Below, piece after piece: positions 22,050-62,725 of a stretch of DNA of 64,000 bases; the stretch's first letter is position 1, and each line of letters begins with the position of its first letter. The position numbers were made by a program, and so were the translations under genes. The notes beneath the pieces were generated by a model, which worked only from the letters and a program-made list of their open reading frames with translations, was not told where the DNA came from and searched no databases. Origin of the DNA: Hyphomonadaceae bacterium. Lineage in GTDB: Bacteria > Pseudomonadota > Alphaproteobacteria > Caulobacterales > Aquidulcibacteraceae. Where the stretch lies: the NCBI GenBank assembly GCA_016791445.1, contig JAEUMP010000016.1, positions 350,490 through 414,489 of the forward strand. The letters are read 5' to 3'.

Positions 22050-23864
22050 ATGGAAAGTACGCATAACGAAACGCCGCCGTCCGAAGCCTCTCGCATCCGC
22101 CTCCCGCCAAAGCTCCCCGTCAAACTCACAGGCGTGAAGGAAGGGCGCGGCAAGCCCTACGGCGCCGCCGTTTGGGCGAAAGTGCGCGCCGAGTACGAAG
22201 CCGGCGAGATCGCGACGGAAATCGCGGCGCGCTACGGCATGGCGCCCGGCACCATCTACACGCGCGCCTCGAAGGAATCGTGGACGCGCACGAAAAGTCC
22301 CGTCACGACGGAAAAATTGCTCGACTCCATGAGCGCGCACGCCGCGCGCGACATCATCGTCGAACTCCGCGACGCGACGTTCGATATCTGTCGCGCCTTC
22401 TCGGTTGTGCATGATCGCATCGTCGCCGCTTCCGACCTGAAGAAGCGCAAGAAGTCGTGGCAGGTGTTGAAGCCCGAGGCGGAGCAGCAGCTGATCGAGC
22501 GCTGGGACAAGGGGGCCACGGCTTCGTCTCTGGCGCCGGAATACGGCCTCACGGAAGCCGGTGTGCGCGGCATTCTCCGCAAGCACGGACGGACGCGGCG
22601 CGGGTCGCCGCGCGAGCCTGTCGAGCTTCCGCCGGAGCTTCCGCCTCCGCCGCCCCCGCCGCCGTGGAACGAAATCGCGCACGCAGCGCAGAAGGCGCCC
22701 GCAGGCGCGTGGCGCACGTGGTTGTTCCAGGGCGGTCGCGGGGCGGGGAAGACGCGCGCTGGCGCGGAGTGGTTCGATGCGATGGCGCGGGCGAACGACA
22801 GCGGCGTCTTCGCGCTCGTCGGCGCGACTTATCACGACGTGCGCGAGGTGATGATCGACGGCGACTCCGGGATCATGAATCTCGGTCGCGGCGATCCGCC
22901 TTACTACGAAGTCGCGCGGCGTCGGCTGCGCTACTCGAACGGCGCCGTCGCGTTCGCTTTCTCGGCCGAGGAATCGCGCCGTCTGCGCGGGCCGCAATTC
23001 CACGGCGCGTGGGCGGACGAGTATTGTGCCTGGAACAAGCCGTCGCAGACGCTCGCCATGCTGCGCCTTGCGCTGCGGCGCGGGCCCGATCCGCGTCTCG
23101 TCATCACCACGACGCCGAAAGCGATCCCCGATCTGCGCAAATTGCACGGCGAGACGGGCTGCGTCATCACGCGTGCGGGCTCGGACGCGAACGCGCACAA
23201 TCTCTCGCCGCACTTTCTCGAACACCTGCGCGACATCTACGGCGACACCGATCTCGCGCGGCAGGAACTCGACGGCGTGATGCTCGAAGCCGCGCCCGGC
23301 GTGATGTGGTCGCACAAGACGCTGCGCGACTGTCGCGGCGCGACGCCTGAGTCGTTCGAGCGCGTGATCGTCGCGGTCGATCCGCCGGCGGGCACGGGCG
23401 GTTCGGCCTGCGGGATCGTGGTCGCGGCGCGGCGGCAGGGGCGGGGCTATGTGCTCGCCGATTATTCGTGCCGCGATCTGTCGCCGCTCGGCTGGGCGCG
23501 GCGCGTGTGCGAGGCCGCGCGCGATTGGAACGCCGACGCCATCGTCGCGGAAGCGAACCAGGGCGGCGATATGGTGCGCGCCACGCTCGCGGGCGCGGGG
23601 CCCGTCTGTCGCATCGATCTTGTGCGCGCGTTCGCGTCGAAGACGCACCGCGCGGCGCCGGTGTCGATGCTCTACGAGCGCGGCCGCATCACGCACTGCG
23701 GCGACTTCGCGGAACTCGAAGAGGAAATGATGGCCATGTCGCGCGACGGCGTGTCGATCAATCGCGCCGTCGGCGGCGACCGCGCGGATGCTCTCGTCTG
23801 GGCGCTCTCGCACCTGCTGGTGGATGTGATGCCGGAACCGCTGTGGCGCGTGCGGCGGTTGTAA
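22050..23864 (+). CDS. GTA-type large terminase with N-terminal HTH modules
   Basis: 604 residues. Residues 220-590 match the large terminase of gene transfer agents and related phages: Walker A GGRGAGKTRAGAEW (228-241), Walker B WADEYCAW (D323-E324), TTTP (353-356) and an RNase H-fold nuclease with Asp in VAVDPPAGTGG (D444), Glu in VAEANQGGDM (E501) and Asp in GGDRADALVWAL (D577/D580). All key residues are present, so it could package and cut DNA. Residues 38-75 and 143-180 look like two helix-turn-helix modules (EIATEIAARYGMAPGTIYTR; ATASSLAPEYGLTEAGVRGIL), joined to the motor by a polyproline linker (194-205). No portal, capsid or other GTA gene is near. The HTH part may replace a small terminase; that is inference. 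Confidence 0.85.
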   Translation: MESTHNETPPSEASRIRLPPKLPVKLTGVKEGRGKPYGAAVWAKVRAEYEAGEIATEIAARYGMAPGTIYTRASKESWTRTKSPVTTEKLLDSMSAHAARDIIVELRDATFDICRAFSVVHDRIVAASDLKKRKKSWQVLKPEAEQQLIERWDKGATASSLAPEYGLTEAGVRGILRKHGRTRRGSPREPVELPPELPPPPPPPPWNEIAHAAQKAPAGAWRTWLFQGGRGAGKTRAGAEWFDAMARANDSGVFALVGATYHDVREVMIDGDSGIMNLGRGDPPYYEVARRRLRYSNGAVAFAFSAEESRRLRGPQFHGAWADEYCAWNKPSQTLAMLRLALRRGPDPRLVITTTPKAIPDLRKLHGETGCVITRAGSDANAHNLSPHFLEHLRDIYGDTDLARQELDGVMLEAAPGVMWSHKTLRDCRGATPESFERVIVAVDPPAGTGGSACGIVVAARRQGRGYVLADYSCRDLSPLGWARRVCEAARDWNADAIVAEANQGGDMVRATLAGAGPVCRIDLVRAFASKTHRAAPVSMLYERGRITHCGDFAELEEEMMAMSRDGVSINRAVGGDRADALVWALSHLLVDVMPEPLWRVRRL

Positions 23865-23875
23865 TCGGTTTTGTC

Positions 23876-23899
23876 CTTCTCCCCCTCGCGGGGGAGAAG
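23876..23899. terminator. Bidirectional terminator hairpin
   Basis: CTTCTCCCCC (23876-23885), loop TCGC, then GGGGGAGAAG (23890-23899): a perfect 10-bp stem 12 bases beyond both the terminase stop and the stop of the converging gene. Confidence 0.7.
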
Positions 23900-23911
23900 G
23901 GTTGTGATGTT

Positions 23912-24634: not shown

Positions 24635-24960
24635 GATGGGCCCCGGTGCTGGAAGTGCGGCGCATGTTGTGGTGCGCGAGCGCGGCGGAAAGACGGCGCG
24701 CGCAAATGTGAAAATTGCGACGGCGCGATTGCTTGACGTGCGCCTGCGGCATGTGAGTTACTTCGCGTGCGGAAGTACTCGGCGGCAGGCCCGCCTCCAA
24801 TTGTCAGCTCTGCTGCAACACGCAAATGGGCCCGGCAAGTCGCCTCGAAGTCTTCCTGCCCAAAACTGAAAGACGACTCCGCGCAAGGCGGTGGGATGGT
24901 CTCCAAGATTGGCCGGCGCATCTATGGCGCTTCAGCAAAAGCGGTGTTTGCGGGCACAAA
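24635..24960. other. Intergenic region, no gene seen
   Basis: 326 bases between the secreted hypothetical and the sortase gene. It is somewhat richer in A/T around 24705-24765 and would contain the promoter of the leftward hypothetical gene. No ORF with a credible start or product was found. Confidence 0.5.
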
Positions 24961-25854
24961 TCATGAACCGAAACTTGAACGGTCGGCATAGACGACGAGG
25001 CGCCACGGCGACTTCTCCGTCGCGTCCACGGGCCAGCAGGTGACGAGCGCCAGCTGCTCTCCCGGCGCATCGGGATAAAGGCGCGAGTCATTGAAGCGCA
25101 CGACCTCGCGGCGCGTGACCGTGTAGTCGAACGTCGCACCGTCGCGCGTCGTCACGCGCACGTCTTCGCCGATGTCGAGATCGCCGAGCGCGCGGAACGC
25201 GGCGTTGCGATGGCCCATGAAGATGGTGACGCCGGCGTCGCCCGGCTCGCGGTCCGGCCACAGCCCCGGCGCGAGCGCAAGCGCGCGTGGTTCGACGCTG
25301 TCGACGAGGATGACGGGCGCGGCGCCCGCAAGCGAAAGCGCGGCATAGGCCTTCGCGGGCGCGCCGGGCCAGGGTCGATCGCCGCCACGCTCGAACGCCT
25401 CCGCCAGCAGCGCGCGCGCCACCGGCCCGCGCAGCGCGCGCCATCCCATGTCGAACGCCGCCGTCGCCGCGAGCGCGAGCGATCCCGCGATGAAGGCGCG
25501 CCGCCAGGTCGTCACTTCGGCCCCCACGAGCGCACGGCCCGTCAGCGCGCCGGCGAAGGAGGCGCAGGCGTCGGTGATCGACATGTCGCGGCCCGTCGGC
25601 GTCAGGCCCTGCGCGATCTCGATGCCGATGGCCAGCACCATCCAGAACACCAGCGTCGTGCGGCCCTTCCACAAGGCGCGCGTCGCTTCCGCGAGGCCCG
25701 CGAGCGTGGCGAAGGCGATGAAGTGCTTGCCCTTGTCGGTGATGGAATCGATGCCGTCGCCGCCGGGCAGCAGCGCAAAGGCGAACACCGCGACCAGCGC
25801 GATCCAGAAAAGCGCGGGCCAGCGGAAGGGCAGTGGCGTGTCGAGGAACGTCAT
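24961..25854 (-). CDS. VanZ-like domain fused to a class GN-like sortase
   Basis: 297 residues. Residues 15-105 form a VanZ-like membrane domain (KGKHFIAFATLAGLAEATR; IEIAQGLTPTGRDMSITDACASFAGALTG). After another helix (121-140), residues 145-292 are a sortase resembling the proteobacterial class GN type, with RPWPGAPAKAYAAL and ALAPGLWPDREPGDAGVTIFMGHR. The catalytic triad is complete: His215 (FMGHRN), Cys273 (LVTCWP) and Arg285 (SPWRLVVY). Sortases cleave a sorting signal and join the substrate to an amine acceptor. The ATG overlaps the stop of the upstream gene (ATGA, 25851-25854), so the enzyme is co-translated with the caspase-muramidase protein, its likely substrate. The usual class GN partner (a VIT/vWA protein) is not in the window. 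Confidence 0.85.
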   Translation of the reverse strand: MTFLDTPLPFRWPALFWIALVAVFAFALLPGGDGIDSITDKGKHFIAFATLAGLAEATRALWKGRTTLVFWMVLAIGIEIAQGLTPTGRDMSITDACASFAGALTGRALVGAEVTTWRRAFIAGSLALAATAAFDMGWRALRGPVARALLAEAFERGGDRPWPGAPAKAYAALSLAGAAPVILVDSVEPRALALAPGLWPDREPGDAGVTIFMGHRNAAFRALGDLDIGEDVRVTTRDGATFDYTVTRREVVRFNDSRLYPDAPGEQLALVTCWPVDATEKSPWRLVVYADRSSFGS

Positions 25855-28253
25855 GCGCGACGGCGCAGCATCCCGACGCCGCCAAGCGCCACAAGCACGA
25901 GCGCCAGCCATGCAAGTGATGACGGTGAAAGCGGCGCGGGCTCGCCGAGATTGGGGATGACAACCGCTTCGTGCGGCAGACCAAACTGGCGCTTGGCGGC
26001 TTGCAGGCGGGCGAAGCGATGTTGATGGCTGAAGTCGTGATTCACGGCAGCAAATGATACCGCAGTGATGTCATCCCGATCCGATGCGTCTATCGGCGAA
26101 ACGCTTCCATGGTATCCGCGCGTCCAGAGAAGCAGCGCCGCCTGCACGGCGACGTCTGGCGTCGCCAGAAGGTCTGGATTGCCTTCCAGATCGATACCCA
26201 GCGCGCGCCCGTAATCGCGATAGGCATTGCGCCCAACGATATCGAATATGCCGCGCTTCCGGTAGCGCGCGCCGTCCCCGGGCTGGGTGTTGCCGAGGTC
26301 AGCTCGTGCCTGCAGCGATTCGCCGCCGCCATTGTCGAGCCTTCTGAATCCGGATTCCTGTGCGGCTTGAGCGAGGAAGTGCGCGACACGAAGGGGTGTC
26401 GTCACACCATACTTCGGCAAGTGTGCGTTTAGCGCCCGTGCAAACGCCTCGGCTGGCATTGGGTCGTGGTTTCCGGCGACTGCGGCCAAGTCCGCTACGG
26501 TGATGGCGCGGAAGAGCGGTTGCGTCGGAATCGTTTCCGGAGCGGGGCGCAACGCCGGCATAGGTGTCGTGTGTGTATCGACATATGGCTCCAGCGGCGC
26601 GGGCGCGGCGGGCAGTTTCGACGCATCGCCGCCGTTGCGGATGTACGCGGCGCGCATCTTGGCATCGTATTGATGCTGGACGTAACCAGGTCCGTTGTAT
26701 CCGCGCGCGAAGCCCGTGAAGTCGAGGCGTTGAATTTCGTCGAGAAGATTGCGCGACACCGCGAGTGCGAGGAGCGACTGATATTGGGCGATTTCGGTGT
26801 TTGAGATCGCGGCGACAAACTCCGTCGCTGAGCCGTACCCGGCGGCGGCGTAGAATTGGCCAAGCATCTGGAAGCGGCCCCAACTTGTCGAGGAGATCGC
26901 CTCTTCGGGGTCCAGCTCGTAGGCTGCCCGTAGCTGCGCCCAGCGCTCATTCTGACCACGCGGATAGCGCTGCGTGCCCCAATGGCGGTACGAAATCGTC
27001 GGATGAGAAGCATCGTAGCGGCGCTTCGTGCGTAGCGAGAAGATATGCGGCTCGAACAGGATGATCGGCCGCCCATTGGCGTCGAAGCCGCCGAGGGGGC
27101 CTGACTCCACTTCTGCGACAGCCAGCAGCGCGGCGAGCTCCACATTGAATTGCGCCGCCAGCTGGCGGAGTTCCGCGTCCGTCGCTTTCGCACGGTTCGG
27201 CACGGTCAACCGGTCCAGATAGGTCGCGCGGCATTGCTGCGCGGCGGTCTGCGCCTGTGTGGCCACATCGCCGTCGGGGACGAGCGCGACGAGATCGAGC
27301 AGCGCCTGGCAATCGCCGGCGGCGCCGGCGGCGCGGGCGCGCACGAGCATGCGCTGCGCATCCGCGCCGGTCTGCGCGACGGGACGTGAGACCACCGGCG
27401 GCGGCGTCACGGGCGTCGGCGCGGCGGCGGTGTTGTCGCCCGCGATATACACCGGCGCGCGGCCCAGCAGCGCCGTCACGAACGGGCGCTGCACTTGCCC
27501 GGTCAATTCCATCGTGCGTTCGGTCACGCCGCCGGCGACGAGGCGCACATCCACGCCGCGCGTAGGCAGTTCAGCGATGAGCGCGCGGGCGAAGGGGCTG
27601 TTTGCGTCGGTGGGCAGGCCGTCGCTGGCGGTGGCGCCGGGCTCCGTGGCGTACATCACCAGCATGCCGTTCGGCAGCGCGGCCTGATTGATCGGCGCGA
27701 GGCCCGCGCCCTGATTGTTCGAACGCACCGGCGCGCCCGCGCCGAGGCGGATCGCGCGCTCGAAGGGATTGTTGCGGCAGGCGTCGAGGATCAGCACCTT
27801 CGTCGTCGCGCCGCCCATGGCGGTGAGCACCATGTCGAGCGGGATGGTTTCCAGCGGCAGGTCTTCAGGCTTGGCGATGTTGGCGGCGAGCGGGATGAGC
27901 CAGTTCTTGCCGTACACTTCCATGCCATGACCGGCGAAATAGACGAGCGCGATGGACGCGCCGTCGGCGACGCGGCGATATTCTCGCAGCGTGCGCTGGA
28001 AGGCGTCGATGTTGAGATCCGTCGCCTCGACGACGGTGGAGAAGCCCGCGCTGCGCAGGCTCTGCGAGATCGCTTTCGCATCGCGCACCGGGTTTGTGAG
28101 CGGCCCGAGCGCGCCGTAGGTCTCGTTGCCGATGACAAGCGCCACGCGGCGGCCGTCCCCGTTGGCGGCGGGCGATGGCGCTTGCGCCGAGGCTGGAATG
28201 ATGGCCGCCGCCAGAAGGCCCAAAGCCGCTGCGAACGCCTTGAGTATCGTCAT
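25851..28253 (-). CDS. Secreted caspase-like/muramidase/GH19 protein with sorting-type tail
   Basis: 800 residues, all parts readable. Signal peptide 1-23 (cleavage near ASAQA). Caspase-like peptidase (C14/metacaspase type) 34-270 with His109 in YFAGHGME and Cys159 in LILDACRNNPF. Linker with Pro-rich stretch 279-300. N-acetylmuramidase domain (PF11860/DUF3380 type) 360-540 with VESG Glu383 and PIILFEPHIFSLRT. GH19 chitinase/lysozyme-like domain 600-720 with FLAQAAQESGF (Glu633), RYRKRGIFDIVGRNAY and LEGNPDLLATPDVAV. The C-terminus is EPAPLSPSS, a hydrophobic helix (780-795), then RRRA, the layout of a sortase or CTERM signal. It should cross the inner membrane and be processed or anchored by the downstream sortase. 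I know of no described family with this architecture. Confidence 0.9.
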   Translation of the reverse strand: MTILKAFAAALGLLAAAIIPASAQAPSPAANGDGRRVALVIGNETYGALGPLTNPVRDAKAISQSLRSAGFSTVVEATDLNIDAFQRTLREYRRVADGASIALVYFAGHGMEVYGKNWLIPLAANIAKPEDLPLETIPLDMVLTAMGGATTKVLILDACRNNPFERAIRLGAGAPVRSNNQGAGLAPINQAALPNGMLVMYATEPGATASDGLPTDANSPFARALIAELPTRGVDVRLVAGGVTERTMELTGQVQRPFVTALLGRAPVYIAGDNTAAAPTPVTPPPVVSRPVAQTGADAQRMLVRARAAGAAGDCQALLDLVALVPDGDVATQAQTAAQQCRATYLDRLTVPNRAKATDAELRQLAAQFNVELAALLAVAEVESGPLGGFDANGRPIILFEPHIFSLRTKRRYDASHPTISYRHWGTQRYPRGQNERWAQLRAAYELDPEEAISSTSWGRFQMLGQFYAAAGYGSATEFVAAISNTEIAQYQSLLALAVSRNLLDEIQRLDFTGFARGYNGPGYVQHQYDAKMRAAYIRNGGDASKLPAAPAPLEPYVDTHTTPMPALRPAPETIPTQPLFRAITVADLAAVAGNHDPMPAEAFARALNAHLPKYGVTTPLRVAHFLAQAAQESGFRRLDNGGGESLQARADLGNTQPGDGARYRKRGIFDIVGRNAYRDYGRALGIDLEGNPDLLATPDVAVQAALLLWTRGYHGSVSPIDASDRDDITAVSFAAVNHDFSHQHRFARLQAAKRQFGLPHEAVVIPNLGEPAPLSPSSLAWLALVLVALGGVGMLRRRA

Positions 28254-28366
28254 CGTGCTTCTCCCCGCAGGCGGACATTAACCACCGGAAATGGCGCGAC
28301 GCAAAGTGGGATGTCGAGGCAAGGCTGCTGACAGGTTCTGGCCGCTGTCGCGGGTATCTGCTGGCC

Positions 28367-28855
28367 ATGAGCACACAGCACGATTTCGACTTTCTCATCG
28401 GCGCCTGGCGCGTGGCGCATCGGCGGCTGAAGCGGCGCCTGGACGGCTGCACCGAGTGGGAGCGCTTCGACGGCGCCTGCAATGTGGCGAAGACATTGGG
28501 CGGGCAGGGCAACTGGGACGACAACATCGTCAACCTGCCGTCCGGCGCCTATCGCGCGAAAGCCTTCCGTGCGTTCGATCCGGCGACGCGCACATGGGCG
28601 ATCTGGTGGCTGGACGCGCGCACGCCCCACGCGATCGATCCGCCCGTGATCGGCGCGTTCAGGGACGGCGTGGGGACGTTCGAATGTGACGATGTGTTCG
28701 AAGGCCGCGCGATCCGGGTGCGTTTCCAATGGTCGCGCACGGATACGGCGTCGCCGCGATGGGAGCAGGCCTTTTCGACAGATGGCGGGGAGAGTTGGGA
28801 GATGAACTGGGAAATGGACTTCCACCGGCTCTGCGGCGCAGGAGCGCTCTCATGA
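28367..28855 (+). CDS. DUF1579-like conserved protein, copy 1
   Basis: 162-residue soluble protein. It opens DFDFLIGAWRVAHRRLKRRL, a pattern shared with its neighbour and with DUF1579-type proteins, and continues with strand-like repeats (YRAKAFRAFDPATRTWAIWWLDAR, IRVRFQWSRT, WEQAFSTDGGESWEMNWEMDFHR). This looks like a lipocalin-like beta barrel, without known ligand. Its stop overlaps the ATG of copy 2 (ATGA). It diverges from the caspase-muramidase gene across 113 bases. Confidence 0.75.
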   Translation: MSTQHDFDFLIGAWRVAHRRLKRRLDGCTEWERFDGACNVAKTLGGQGNWDDNIVNLPSGAYRAKAFRAFDPATRTWAIWWLDARTPHAIDPPVIGAFRDGVGTFECDDVFEGRAIRVRFQWSRTDTASPRWEQAFSTDGGESWEMNWEMDFHRLCGAGALS

Positions 28856-29328
28856 CCGGCGCGCAATCCGAACCGCCCGCCGGCAAGCCCGGCGACTTCG
28901 ATTTCCTCAACGGGGAGTGGCGCATTTCGCATCGCAGGCTCAAGTCGCCCGGCGAATGGGATGTGTTCGATGGCGAAGCCACGTGCTGGTCCATTCTCGG
29001 CGGCATGACGAGCATCGAGGAGCTTCGCATTCCGGCGCGCAATTTCGCGGGTCTCGGCCTGCGCACGCTCGACCAGAAGAAGCTTGTCTGGATGGACTAC
29101 TGGATGAACGCCACCGCAGGCGTGCTCACCGGAACCGGCGCGACCGGACGGTTTGAGAACGGCCGGGGCGTCTTCATCAGCGACTATGACGACAACGGGA
29201 CGATGGTGAAAGTGCGCGGGGTGTGGGACGAGATCACGGGCGTCTCGCATCGTTGGGTGCAGTCGATTTCGCGCGATGGCGGCGCGACGTGGGACGACAA
29301 CTGGCTGATGGAATGGCGCAAGGCGTGA
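28852..29328 (+). CDS. DUF1579-like conserved protein, copy 2
   Basis: 158 residues, paralogue of the preceding gene: GDFDFLNGEWRISHRRLKSPGEWDVFDG, then LRTLDQKKLVWMDYWMNATAGVL, VRGVWDEITGVSHRWVQSISRDGGATWDDNW. The shared W-x-x-x-x-S-x-D-G-G-x-x-W-x-x-N-W ending confirms the duplication. The coupled ATGA overlap implies that both are made together, perhaps as a heteromer. Function unknown. Confidence 0.75.
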   Translation: MTGAQSEPPAGKPGDFDFLNGEWRISHRRLKSPGEWDVFDGEATCWSILGGMTSIEELRIPARNFAGLGLRTLDQKKLVWMDYWMNATAGVLTGTGATGRFENGRGVFISDYDDNGTMVKVRGVWDEITGVSHRWVQSISRDGGATWDDNWLMEWRKA

Positions 29329-29335
29329 CGCCGGC

Positions 29336-30028
29336 CTAGAACGCCGCGCCCACCGCTTCGGTCAGGAACTTCATCAGCGGCTTCGCATCGGCGTAGGCGC
29401 CGGCGACGTGGTCCACGAATTTCGGATCGCCCGCCTGCGAGACGGTGGCGGTGGTGGTGACGAAGAAGCTCTTCTTGCGCAGGTCCTCGATCATCGGGTG
29501 ATCGCAGGGATAGCCCTTCGGTGCGCGGATGAGGGGATCGCCGTCGCCGAGATCGCCGAACGTCTCGACGACCGAAGGCGCCGTGCGCGCCTTCTTCCAG
29601 GCGGGCGCCTTCGCGACGATGGCGTCGCGGATTTTGCCGAGCGTCGGATTGTCCGGCATCCACACGCCGCCGCCGAAGAAGACCTGGGCAGGTTCGAGAT
29701 GCAGGTAGAAGCCCGGCGCGTGGGCGTCCTTGCCGGCGGCGTGGCGGAAATGGATGCCCGCATGGGTCTTGTAGGGCGTCTTTTCCTTGGAGAAGCGCGT
29801 GTCGCGATAGATGCGGAACATGGAGCCGCCGTTCGACCGCGGATCGGCTACGAAGTGCGGCGAGATCTTCTTCAGGCGCGGCCCGATAGCCTCGATGAAC
29901 GCCACGCACGGCGCGACGACGACCTCCTTGTACCGCGGCTTGTTCGCCTCGAACCACGCGCGGTCATTGTTCTTCGCGAGATCGCGGAAGAAGGCGAAGA
30001 AGGATTTGTCGAAGCCCTGAAACGACAT
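29336..30028 (-). CDS. DUF2461-family protein
   Basis: 230 residues. Starts FQGFDKSFFAFFRDLAKNNDRAWFEANKPRYKEVVVAP and continues with FRIYRDTRFSKEKTPYKTHAGIHFRH and FYLHLEPAQVFFGGGVWMPD, the diagnostic motifs of the DUF2461 (TIGR02453) family, which has no proven activity. ATG 30028 is chosen because MSFQGF is the family start. Convergent with the DUF1579-like pair (7-base gap). Confidence 0.88.
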   Translation of the reverse strand: MSFQGFDKSFFAFFRDLAKNNDRAWFEANKPRYKEVVVAPCVAFIEAIGPRLKKISPHFVADPRSNGGSMFRIYRDTRFSKEKTPYKTHAGIHFRHAAGKDAHAPGFYLHLEPAQVFFGGGVWMPDNPTLGKIRDAIVAKAPAWKKARTAPSVVETFGDLGDGDPLIRAPKGYPCDHPMIEDLRKKSFFVTTTATVSQAGDPKFVDHVAGAYADAKPLMKFLTEAVGAAF

Positions 30029-30099
30029 GGCGCCCCCCGTTGTCGAAATCAGGTTGGCCCGAACGTCTCTTGTGCGCAATCTTGCAGCGGGAGGCCCTC

Positions 30100-60961: not shown

Positions 60962-61885
60962 TTACATCAGCGGCAGTTCGACCTTCACGCTTTGGCCCGC
61001 GTCATTCCGTGCGTCGCCGACGAGGCGGAAGTCATCGGTGGGCTGGAGGACGAGGACGGTGTTGCGGTCTTCCGCGCCGACCTTGCAGCGCGCGGAGATG
61101 GTGACGCCCGTGCGGTTCACGGTGCCGGCCATGCCGGTGGGTGCGCAGAGGCCGCCGTCGAAGGCGCCGGAGGTTTCGTTCAGCGAGCGGATCGTGAGAC
61201 CCACGCCCTGCAGCGCATTGGCGAAGGGCTGCGCGTCTTCAGTGGCGGCGACCGCCAGCAGCGGCATGCGTGCGCCGCGTCGCATGGAAAGAAGGCGCTT
61301 CACCGCGATCTGGCGCAAGGCGGGATCGTTGCTGCGGTAGAGCTTGTCGATGGCGGCGGCGATGACGGCGTCGTCCTGGCCCGAGAGCACCGTCACGCCG
61401 GCGCGCACGCGCTCCGCCGGATCGGTCGAGGCGAGGCCGTTCGCCAGCTCCTGCATGGCGAGCTCGGAGGGCGACAGCGCGGGCGCTTCGGCGGCATCCG
61501 ACCGCGGCGGCCCCTTCGGGTGCGGCGTGACGAGCACGCTCTGCAACGTGTCGCCGAAGGGAACGAGAGTGGCGAAGACGCCGCGCTCGTTGGCGGCGGG
61601 CTTCGGCGCGACATACCAGAGACCGATGAAGACGGCGCAGGCGAGGGCGTTGAGCAGGGCGACGCCGGCCATGGTGCGGAGCAATCCCGTCAGCGGCGGC
61701 AGCAGCGACAGCACGCCGGCGATCGCCGCGAGTACGCCGAACACCGCCGCCATCGTCAGCACCACGGGCCCGTAGGGCGTCATCAGGTCTGCAGCGACGG
61801 CGAGCACGATCGCGCAGATCAGCGCCGCGATCAGGGTGGAGATGCTGAAGCCCGCGCCCCCGCCGTGCCCGTGCATGTCGCTCAT
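60962..61885 (-). CDS. Membrane protein with HEAT-like C-terminal region
   Basis: 307 residues. The His/Gly start MSDMHGHGGGAGF precedes about four hydrophobic segments: ISTLIAALICAIVLAVAADL, VVLTMAAVFGVLAAIAGVLSLL, LLRTMAGVALLNALACAVFIGLWYV. The soluble C-terminal part has helical repeat-like segments (ELAMQELANGLASTDPAERVRAGV, DAVIAAAIDKLYRSNDPALRQIAVKRLL) followed by a beta-rich domain with a Cys pair (GGLCAPTG, SARCKVG). Unknown function. ATG 61885 follows an AAGGGGA site; the longer in-frame opening to 63595 is non-coding overlap with other genes. Confidence 0.72.
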   Translation of the reverse strand: MSDMHGHGGGAGFSISTLIAALICAIVLAVAADLMTPYGPVVLTMAAVFGVLAAIAGVLSLLPPLTGLLRTMAGVALLNALACAVFIGLWYVAPKPAANERGVFATLVPFGDTLQSVLVTPHPKGPPRSDAAEAPALSPSELAMQELANGLASTDPAERVRAGVTVLSGQDDAVIAAAIDKLYRSNDPALRQIAVKRLLSMRRGARMPLLAVAATEDAQPFANALQGVGLTIRSLNETSGAFDGGLCAPTGMAGTVNRTGVTISARCKVGAEDRNTVLVLQPTDDFRLVGDARNDAGQSVKVELPLM

Positions 61886-61981
61886 GGAAATCCCCTTCCG
61901 ATGGACCTCCGTTCTTACCATCGCGACAGGAAGGCGCCAGACTGTTCGCGAATACGGAACTTCTGGAACCCGGAGCCCACG

Positions 61982-62725
61982 ATGCAGCTTTCCACCGCGA
62001 CCTGGCAGGAGGTCGAAGCCTACCTGAAGCACGCGCGCGGCCTCATCATCCCGATCGGCAGCCACGAACAGCACGGCCCCAACGGCCATCTCGGCACCGA
62101 CGCGATCTGCCCGGAGGTGATCGCCGCCGAAGCGGGGCTCGAGGATGGCATCCTCATCGCGCCGACGTTCAATGTCGGCCAGGCGCAGCATCACATGGGC
62201 TTTCCCGGGACGATCACGCTCCGGCCCTCCACCATGCTTGCGGCCCTGCAGGACTGGATTTCGAGCTTCACGCGGCACGGCTTCACGCGGCTCTATTTTC
62301 TCAACGGCCACGGCGGCAACGTCGCGACGATCCAGGCCGCGTTCTCGGAAGCCTATGCGCCGTGGAGCCTGAAAGGGGAGGCGGCGCCGTTCGCCTGCAC
62401 GCTGCAGAACTGGTGGGAGCTGCGCGGCGTGGCCGACCTGTGCAAGCGGCTCTTTCCTGTCGGCGACGGGAGCCATGCGACGGCGTCCGAGGTCAGCGTG
62501 ACCTATTACAAGTATCCCGATTTCCAGAAGCGCGTGGACATGTCCCCGAAGATCGCGCCGACCGGGCCGATCCGCGACGCGGCCGACTATCGCCGCCGTT
62601 TTCCGGACGGACGCATCGGCTCCGATCCCTCGCAGGCCAGCGTCGAGGCGGGAGCCGAACTCGTGGCGGCGGCGAAGGCTGCACTGATCGCCGACGCCCG
62701 GCGCTTCTTCGGCGAGAACGACTGA
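61982..62725 (+). CDS. Creatininase-family protein
   Basis: 247 residues of the creatininase/MftE fold: LIIPIGSHEQHGPNGHLGTDAI, LIAPTFNVGQAQHHMGFPGTITLRP, LYFLNGHGGN and GDGSHATASEVS. The metal ligands are visible: Glu in SHEQHG, His, Asp in GTDA, and Glu in ASEVS. Members hydrolyse amides such as creatinine or mycofactocin precursors. No mycofactocin genes are near, so the substrate is unknown. Confidence 0.9.
   Translation: MQLSTATWQEVEAYLKHARGLIIPIGSHEQHGPNGHLGTDAICPEVIAAEAGLEDGILIAPTFNVGQAQHHMGFPGTITLRPSTMLAALQDWISSFTRHGFTRLYFLNGHGGNVATIQAAFSEAYAPWSLKGEAAPFACTLQNWWELRGVADLCKRLFPVGDGSHATASEVSVTYYKYPDFQKRVDMSPKIAPTGPIRDAADYRRRFPDGRIGSDPSQASVEAGAELVAAAKAALIADARRFFGEND

Follow-up and report, generated by a model that had tools for sequence, protein, structure and literature searches.

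To our knowledge, the purpose of the strictly Gram-negative sortase is unclear. The available text of PMC3237569 describes it as paired with vWA/vault-type proteins. Class GN sortases (TIGR03784) and their VIT/vWA targets form the closest counterpart of the locus reported here, which lies in a 64,000-nucleotide stretch (hereafter the window) of contig JAEUMP010000016.1 from a Hyphomonadaceae bacterium. It consists of a gene for a protein with caspase-like and lysin domains, the putative substrate, and a gene for a VanZ-fused sortase. As in class GN, the setting is Gram-negative, the sortase is dedicated, the substrate gene is directly upstream and the substrate ends in a motif, a helix and basic residues.

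Rhombosortase and its GlyGly-CTERM targets also combine a Gram-negative C-terminal tripartite signal with, in many cases, one target encoded beside the enzyme (available parts of PMC3237569 and PMC6219818). As far as these texts go, rhombosortase is a rhomboid serine protease with a glycine-rich motif, in contrast to the cysteine sortase found here. VesB, which is cut by rhombosortase, gains a glycerophosphoethanolamine-containing moiety and then reaches the surface via type II secretion, according to the available text of PMC6219818. Among prokaryotic metacaspases, four of 671 sequences carry an Amidase_2 domain. These also join a caspase to a wall hydrolase in one protein and a role in cell death was suggested, but the hydrolase differs from the muramidase and GH19-type domain of the window, and the available part of that report mentions no sorting tail (PMC3501461).

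The lysin domains of the substrate are those of phage endolysins, i.e. the PF11860 enzymes AP3 (5nm7), Pae87 (7q4s) and LysT84 (7rum) and the GH19 endolysin PWe2 (9ms7), with 26–28% identity in the fold search. In the window, however, a bacterial gene combines them with a caspase and a sorting tail. Polymorphic toxins combine a constant N-terminal part with an exchangeable catalytic module, a trait that is seen in the substrate at the protein level among three near-identical alleles. In contrast to such toxins, the module is flanked by constant parts on both sides. No immunity-like gene was recognised by Pfam among ten neighbouring open reading frames (ORFs), four of which have no Pfam match. 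No title or abstract opening joining a sortase with a caspase and muramidase or VanZ parts was found. A caspase joined to a wall amidase (available text of PMC3501461) and dedicated Gram-negative sortases are already known. The tail motif and the payload appear to be new, as they were found described nowhere in these titles and abstract openings.

The substrate and sortase ORFs (800 and 297 residues) are both intact on the minus strand and are presumably transcribed as one operon. The N-terminal part of the substrate matches Peptidase_C14 with 92.9 bits (Pfam cutoff 21.4). Both residues of the caspase dyad are present and Cys159 is invariant across 14 aligned rows. By sequence, this domain resembles MALT1 paracaspase (best E-value 3.6e-8). 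The fold search with the predicted substrate model also returned a paracaspase, the caspase part of the model being of low confidence. The muramidase domain (PF11860) scores 159.4 bits. Its Glu383 and Glu401, which align with two glutamates of Pae87, are presumably the catalytic residues of this family; Glu401 is invariant and Glu383 nearly so in the 14 rows. With 21.2 bits the Glyco_hydro_19 match is below the Pfam cutoff of 25.5, yet the domain is similar to the solved endolysin 9ms7 (E-value 1.1e-15) and to PHROG endolysins. In the fold search the predicted model gave a TM-score of 0.82 to 9ms7 (normalised by target), and overall the predicted models returned endolysin, paracaspase and sortase structures. 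Since the PF11860 and GH19 relatives are phage endolysins, the lysin domains of the substrate would be expected to act on the cell wall.

The alignment of substrate homologues comprises 14 of 32 database matches. P0033–P0050, which do not have both caspase and muramidase, were excluded, and P0026 is included without its N-terminus. The muramidase is found in all 14 homologues and GH19 in five by alignment (four by Pfam). GH19 is therefore optional, and the core consists of caspase, muramidase and tail. In a sample of 398 genomes of the order, with at most three candidates scored per genome, 37 genomes match the caspase-muramidase profile (E-value 1e-60). Caspase and muramidase occur within one match only in the genome of the window. 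A caspase-muramidase scan of the named GTDB 220 genomes yielded 24 loci; for 23 of them the match lies in or close to the caspase region, and for L040 it lies in the GH19 region. PF11860-type muramidase genes as such are frequent in genomes of the family (L078–L106, mostly from the family) and sometimes stand in tandem. Genome G000 has 13 caspase-domain matches, two of them near each other on contig C4.

Immediately N-terminal to the hydrophobic helix of the substrate stands the sequence IPNLGEP. A signal peptide predicted from hydropathy, this LPXTG-like motif, the hydrophobic helix and the basic end constitute a tripartite signal. The pattern [IL]P[NDQ]xG[EA]P is present in all 12 tailed homologues among the 14 aligned; 11 have GEP and one has GAP (P0025, IPNTGAP), and 11 begin with IP and one with LP. 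The preceding stretch differs in length and sequence, ranging from GH19 to a short proline-rich segment. Thus, the motif persists although its surroundings change. At an E-value of 1, the substrate matches no sorting-signal model of Pfam or NCBIfam.

Across the 3.6 Mb of the genome, the DNA pattern for IP[ND]xGEP is found a single time, in the tail of the substrate. A broader pattern, which allows any NTN codon for the first residue and N, K, D or E for the third, has five occurrences, and only the one in the substrate is near a stop codon (35 residues) and has a hydrophobic helix. As far as these searches reach (neither pattern covers GAP tails or a Q in third position), the genome contains one motif-bearing tail. 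A motif match in locus L125 was rejected as a chance match, its frame having no following stop in the available stretch.

A preliminary description of the window, made from the sequence alone, had read the substrate as a secreted protein with a caspase-like peptidase and two sugar or peptidoglycan hydrolase domains that ends in a hydrophobic helix and RRRA, its stop codon overlapping the start of a VanZ-sortase gene with an intact triad. The dyad residues, both hydrolase domains, the overlap, the triad, the helix and the basic end were all found as described. The motif directly before the helix had been overlooked, and of the proposed caspase, muramidase and GH19 payload only the first two parts proved to be general.

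The sortase matches PF04203 with 69 bits (cutoff 26.6), and its triad His215, Cys273 and Arg285 is invariant in 15 aligned rows. Its VanZ match reaches 25.8 bits (cutoff 30.1); precomputed Pfam data of the same protein cluster list VanZ, and the predicted model has five N-terminal helices. Many genomes of the order, including two of the same genus, carry a separate short VanZ-like gene, so it is plausible that a VanZ gene became fused to a sortase. The best NCBIfam match is TIGR03784 (E-value 7.4e-24), with 84.3 bits compared to an equivalog cutoff of 158.25. In a database of 5.8 billion proteins (about 8,000 scored candidates sharing most words with the query), 15 clusters cover at least 85% of the sortase. 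TIGR03784 gives the lowest E-value among the families listed for all 15 (3.6e-29), and all 15 match class D models, too. In a tree with 42 other sortases these clusters are on one side of a branch (support 89/88, present in 87% of the bootstrap trees); this support is moderate and the Bacillus outgroup is long-branched. The sortase alignments comprise 12 of 18 matches (A1; P0010 and P0014–P0018, which are VanZ-only or short, excluded) and 15 of 17 matches (A3; P0010 and P0054 excluded). With moderate support, the sortase appears to belong to a small separate VanZ-fused group to which class GN is nearest.

The partner differs as well. Among 41 class GN-like loci, 39 have an upstream ORF that ends in LPx[TG]x and a helix, in contrast to the window motif, and none has a caspase in the available stretch. 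One genome place is counted twice in this set (L069 and L132), L122 was excluded and some flanks are 1.5 kb or shorter. Two annotated records name the class GN neighbour 'marine proteobacterial sortase target protein', a family (NCBIfam) that the window substrate does not match. Membership in class GN was rejected on the grounds of the cutoff, the position in the tree and the different partner.

The sortase is the sole PF04203 match in its genome, which is 96.1% complete, and any PF04203 sortase is found in only one of 60 genomes of the family. Neither of the two other genomes of the genus matches the sortase protein query, and one further genome of the family (G048) has a weak match to VanZ only. 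In profile searches with at most six scored candidates per genome, no other genome has a near-full-length match among the matches listed for the 398 genomes of the order sample. Such searches found a full-length sortase in one of 385 genomes of the class sample (E-value 1e-45) and in one of 398 of the phylum sample (E-value 1e-30), where 11 other matches start at profile position 53 or later. The scan of named GTDB 220 genomes gave 118 pattern matches and no relative. Carriage by phages was rejected (35 pattern matches to the sortase in viral contigs, none confirmed). Carriage by plasmids was rejected, too: 22 plasmid records match, and each of the 20 listed covers at most 38% of the query. 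Their annotations, where present, name a class GN, a class D or a plain sortase.

The pairing of the two genes probably recurs on two other contigs, as judged from equal sizes of the longest contigs of sortase and caspase-muramidase clusters (P0002 and P0023, 304188; P0007 and P0028, 5896). Together with the existence of homologues for both proteins, this apparent recurrence speaks against a chance arrangement. Equal sizes also connect the caspase-muramidase clusters P0024 with P0027 (14907) and P0026 with P0030 (3459), so some relatives probably carry two substrates in tandem. The preliminary description had proposed a single sortase with a single substrate and had contrasted it with class GN sortases and their VIT/vWA proteins. 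One sortase and one substrate stand for this genome by the PF04203 and motif searches, but some relatives probably have two substrates and most clusters are not paired by size. Class GN sortases do have targets of the VIT/vWA type beside them; the window sortase is below the class GN cutoff and in its own VanZ-fused group.

The lysin half of the substrate differs most among close homologues. The window protein (P0019), P0020 and P0021 are 100% identical over residues 25–270, i.e. the caspase, and linker identity to the window protein is 99% for P0020 and 96% for P0021. P0020 and the window protein show no difference before residue 359. Identity then decreases to 82% in the muramidase and 58% in GH19, and is back to 94% in the tail. 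P0020 and P0021 are 97% identical over muramidase and tail and 52% over GH19. P0021 and P0022, on the other hand, share 78% in GH19, yet 68% in the muramidase and 55% in the tail. Among the three caspase-identical alleles GH19 identity is 48–58%.

Along the window gene, the G+C content at third codon positions (GC3) is 86.9 for residues 1–358, 74.7 for the muramidase, 67.6 for GH19 and 68.6 for the 35-codon tail, compared to 88.6 for the sortase. GC3 of the tail stays low, whereas its protein identity recovers. The spread of 18.9 is the largest in a within-gene ranking (runner-up 15.6). Low GC3 is also found elsewhere, 14 of 123 other segments being at or below 74.7 and four of 123 at or below 67.6. 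Because identity falls over the lysin domains and GC3 drops inside the gene, the lysin half looks exchanged between constant flanks; the comparison is one of protein sequences of three near-identical alleles, in which assembly chimeras are possible. The second-largest spread belongs to the gene at 60992–62725 (+), another possible chimeric gene.

Synteny with the same-genus genomes G001 and G002 is seen on the terminase side and at the DUF2461 gene. At the same site (L117/L118 comparison, 24961–29330), G001 has a hybrid histidine kinase and G002 a penicillin amidase and an ORF without family. Homology on the terminase side stops at about 24968, at the 3' end of the sortase gene. Since the flanks are syntenic while the genes between them differ, the sortase and lysin genes occupy a variable site. 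No tRNA or Rfam element was found in the window.

Most likely among the readings considered, with a probability of roughly 0.42, the locus encodes a sortase-tethered, caspase-gated lysin that acts on the wall of its producer. The substrate would be exported by Sec via its N-terminal signal and retained by its C-terminal helix at the periplasmic side of the inner membrane. By analogy with cleavage of LPXT-G, the sortase would cut IPNL-GEP, between x and G of IPxxGEP. The new C-terminal end would be joined to a nucleophile of the envelope, either a wall precursor or, as for rhombosortase, a lipid. The caspase may hold the lysin domains in check and then release them by cutting the linker or a partner, with regulated lysis or a local opening of the producer's wall as the outcome. 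Attack on the own wall is preferred because no additional transport would be needed for the lysin-type domains to reach it and the ten scanned neighbours include no recognised immunity gene.

Several observations weigh against this reading. Gating by the caspase is a conjecture, and the arginine in the proline-rich linker of the window protein precedes proline (by eye), which is a poor site for an arginine-cutting caspase. P0030 has glutamine at the position of the first muramidase glutamate and P0025 is without the first GH19 glutamate (both by eye); some copies may therefore not be lytic. The tail is absent in two of the 14 homologues (P0029 and P0032). The longest-contig sizes of most clusters do not pair a sortase with a substrate; as each cluster reports its longest contig alone, unmatched sizes neither show nor exclude pairing. 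Confidence in both predicted models is moderate or low. The substrate model has a pLDDT of 67 and a pTM of 0.40. The sortase model has a pLDDT of 71.9 and a pTM of 0.62, with values under 50 for residues 186–207, and the hydropathy scan flags just two of its N-terminal helices. Finally, an exchange of the lysin half would suit a weapon better than a constant self-target.

This last point, which speaks for competition with other bacteria, keeps alive the main rival, namely that the processed protein is carried to the outer surface, where exchangeable lysins released by the caspase attack competitors. A surface weapon would be in line with the variable lysin module between an unchanging caspase and tail, with the GC3 spread and with the variable site. 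VesB, cleaved by rhombosortase, offers an analogous route to the surface by type II secretion (available text of PMC6219818). However, the two genes leave the crossing of the outer membrane unexplained and the ten neighbouring ORFs provide no recognised immunity gene (four have no Pfam match). We consider this reading unlikely, albeit ahead of the remaining ones. It is followed by housekeeping, where the sortase fixes a muramidase at places of wall opening and the caspase merely matures it. The muramidase in 14 of 14 homologues, compared to five with GH19 by alignment, looks as if muramidase activity were the point. Rarity argues against such a role: a sortase in one of 60 genomes of the family, a joined caspase-muramidase in one of 398 of the order and a full-length sortase in one of 385 of the class and one of 398 of the phylum, with other genes at the site in both same-genus genomes. 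A housekeeping function is unlikely, too, and ranks behind the surface weapon.

Suicide upon phage infection, with the caspase being activated by the infection and the tethered lysin causing premature bursting of the cell, is improbable. The variable site and a weak PADLOC match of the caspase (E-value 1.1e-8, 32.7 bits) would fit. No defence gene was recognised by Pfam among the ten neighbours, though, PADLOC (run with three proteins) matches neither the sortase nor the 240-residue neighbour, and the caspase is predicted to be periplasmic. That the tail is a mere membrane anchor beside an incidental sortase is very improbable, since, even if sorting is a prediction and contig sharing outside the window was deduced from sizes, the overlapping genes, the conserved IPxxGEP, the presence of a single sortase and a single tail of this kind in the genome and the probable recurring pairs all speak against it.

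Further features were observed around the operon (Table 1 lists the coordinates of the locus and its edges). A gene for the large subunit of terminase (Terminase_6N/6C; 22050–23864, +), syntenic in both same-genus genomes, lies beside it and is possibly of the gene-transfer-agent type, as we presume. It is followed at 23876–23902 by a palindromic repeat of 27 bases (CTTCTCCCCCTCGCGGGGGAGAAGGGT), which matches the genome at dozens of places and has further matches in the two same-genus genomes. Several copies are arranged as opposite-strand pairs about 120 bases apart. The intergenic stretch 24753–24968 is conserved even though the adjoining gene differs (about 74% with G002; with G001 it is part of a 68% match). 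It has no Rfam or tRNA match and could be an RNA or regulatory element of unknown type. Between the operon and the DUF2461 gene, two overlapping ORFs (28367–28855 and 28729–29328, +) share an FDFLxGxWRxxHRRLK-like motif and have no Pfam match.

Table 1. Coordinates of the sortase-substrate locus and its borders within the window.
Feature	Position	Strand	Evidence
Substrate gene, 800 aa (hydrophobic N-terminus, caspase, muramidase, GH19-type domain, sorting tail)	25851..28253	-	ORF, Pfam, homologue alignment
Predicted signal peptide, aa 1-24 (hydrophobic aa 1-19)	28182..28253	-	Hydropathy alone
Caspase-like Peptidase_C14, aa 35-235, dyad His109/Cys159	27549..28151	-	Pfam, sequence matches, alignment
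PF11860 N-acetylmuramidase domain, aa 372-538, Glu383 and Glu401	26640..27140	-	Pfam, structure homologues
GH19 endolysin-type domain, aa 581-754, most variable module	25992..26513	-	PHROG, solved-structure matches, fold search, identities
Sorting motif IPNLGEP, aa 766-772	25938..25958	-	Alignment, genome pattern search
C-terminal hydrophobic helix, aa 778-796, then RRRA	25866..25922	-	Hydropathy; helix 777-799 in predicted model
VanZ-sortase gene, 297 aa	24961..25854	-	ORF, Pfam, NCBIfam
VanZ-like part, aa 41-109, in N-terminal helical region	25528..25734	-	Pfam (below cutoff); helices of predicted model
Sortase domain, aa 186-292, His215/Cys273/Arg285	24979..25299	-	Pfam, fold search, alignment
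ATGA shared by the stop of the substrate gene and the start of the sortase gene	25851..25854	-	Sequence
Intergenic stretch also present in two same-genus genomes, homologous up to the 3' end of the sortase gene (variable-site edge)	24753..24968	.	Comparison
DUF2461 gene, conserved flank on the opposite side of the variable site	29336..30079	-	Pfam, synteny

With a motif of its own and an enzyme payload that can be assayed, this second branch of dedicated Gram-negative sortases would make sorting in a two-membrane cell directly testable. Likewise, a bacterial caspase in one chain with cell-wall hydrolases would make a role of prokaryotic caspases in lysis testable. Three point mutants would serve for such a test, i.e. 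C159A of the caspase, E383Q of the muramidase and C273A of the sortase. The broader idea of a new Gram-negative envelope device, in which a VanZ-fused sortase displays a caspase-gated lysin whose modules are swapped like warheads between a constant protease and an anchor, is tentative and rather doubtful. If true, bacteria would possess a wall breaker that is tethered, is triggered by a protease and kills either neighbours or the producers themselves.

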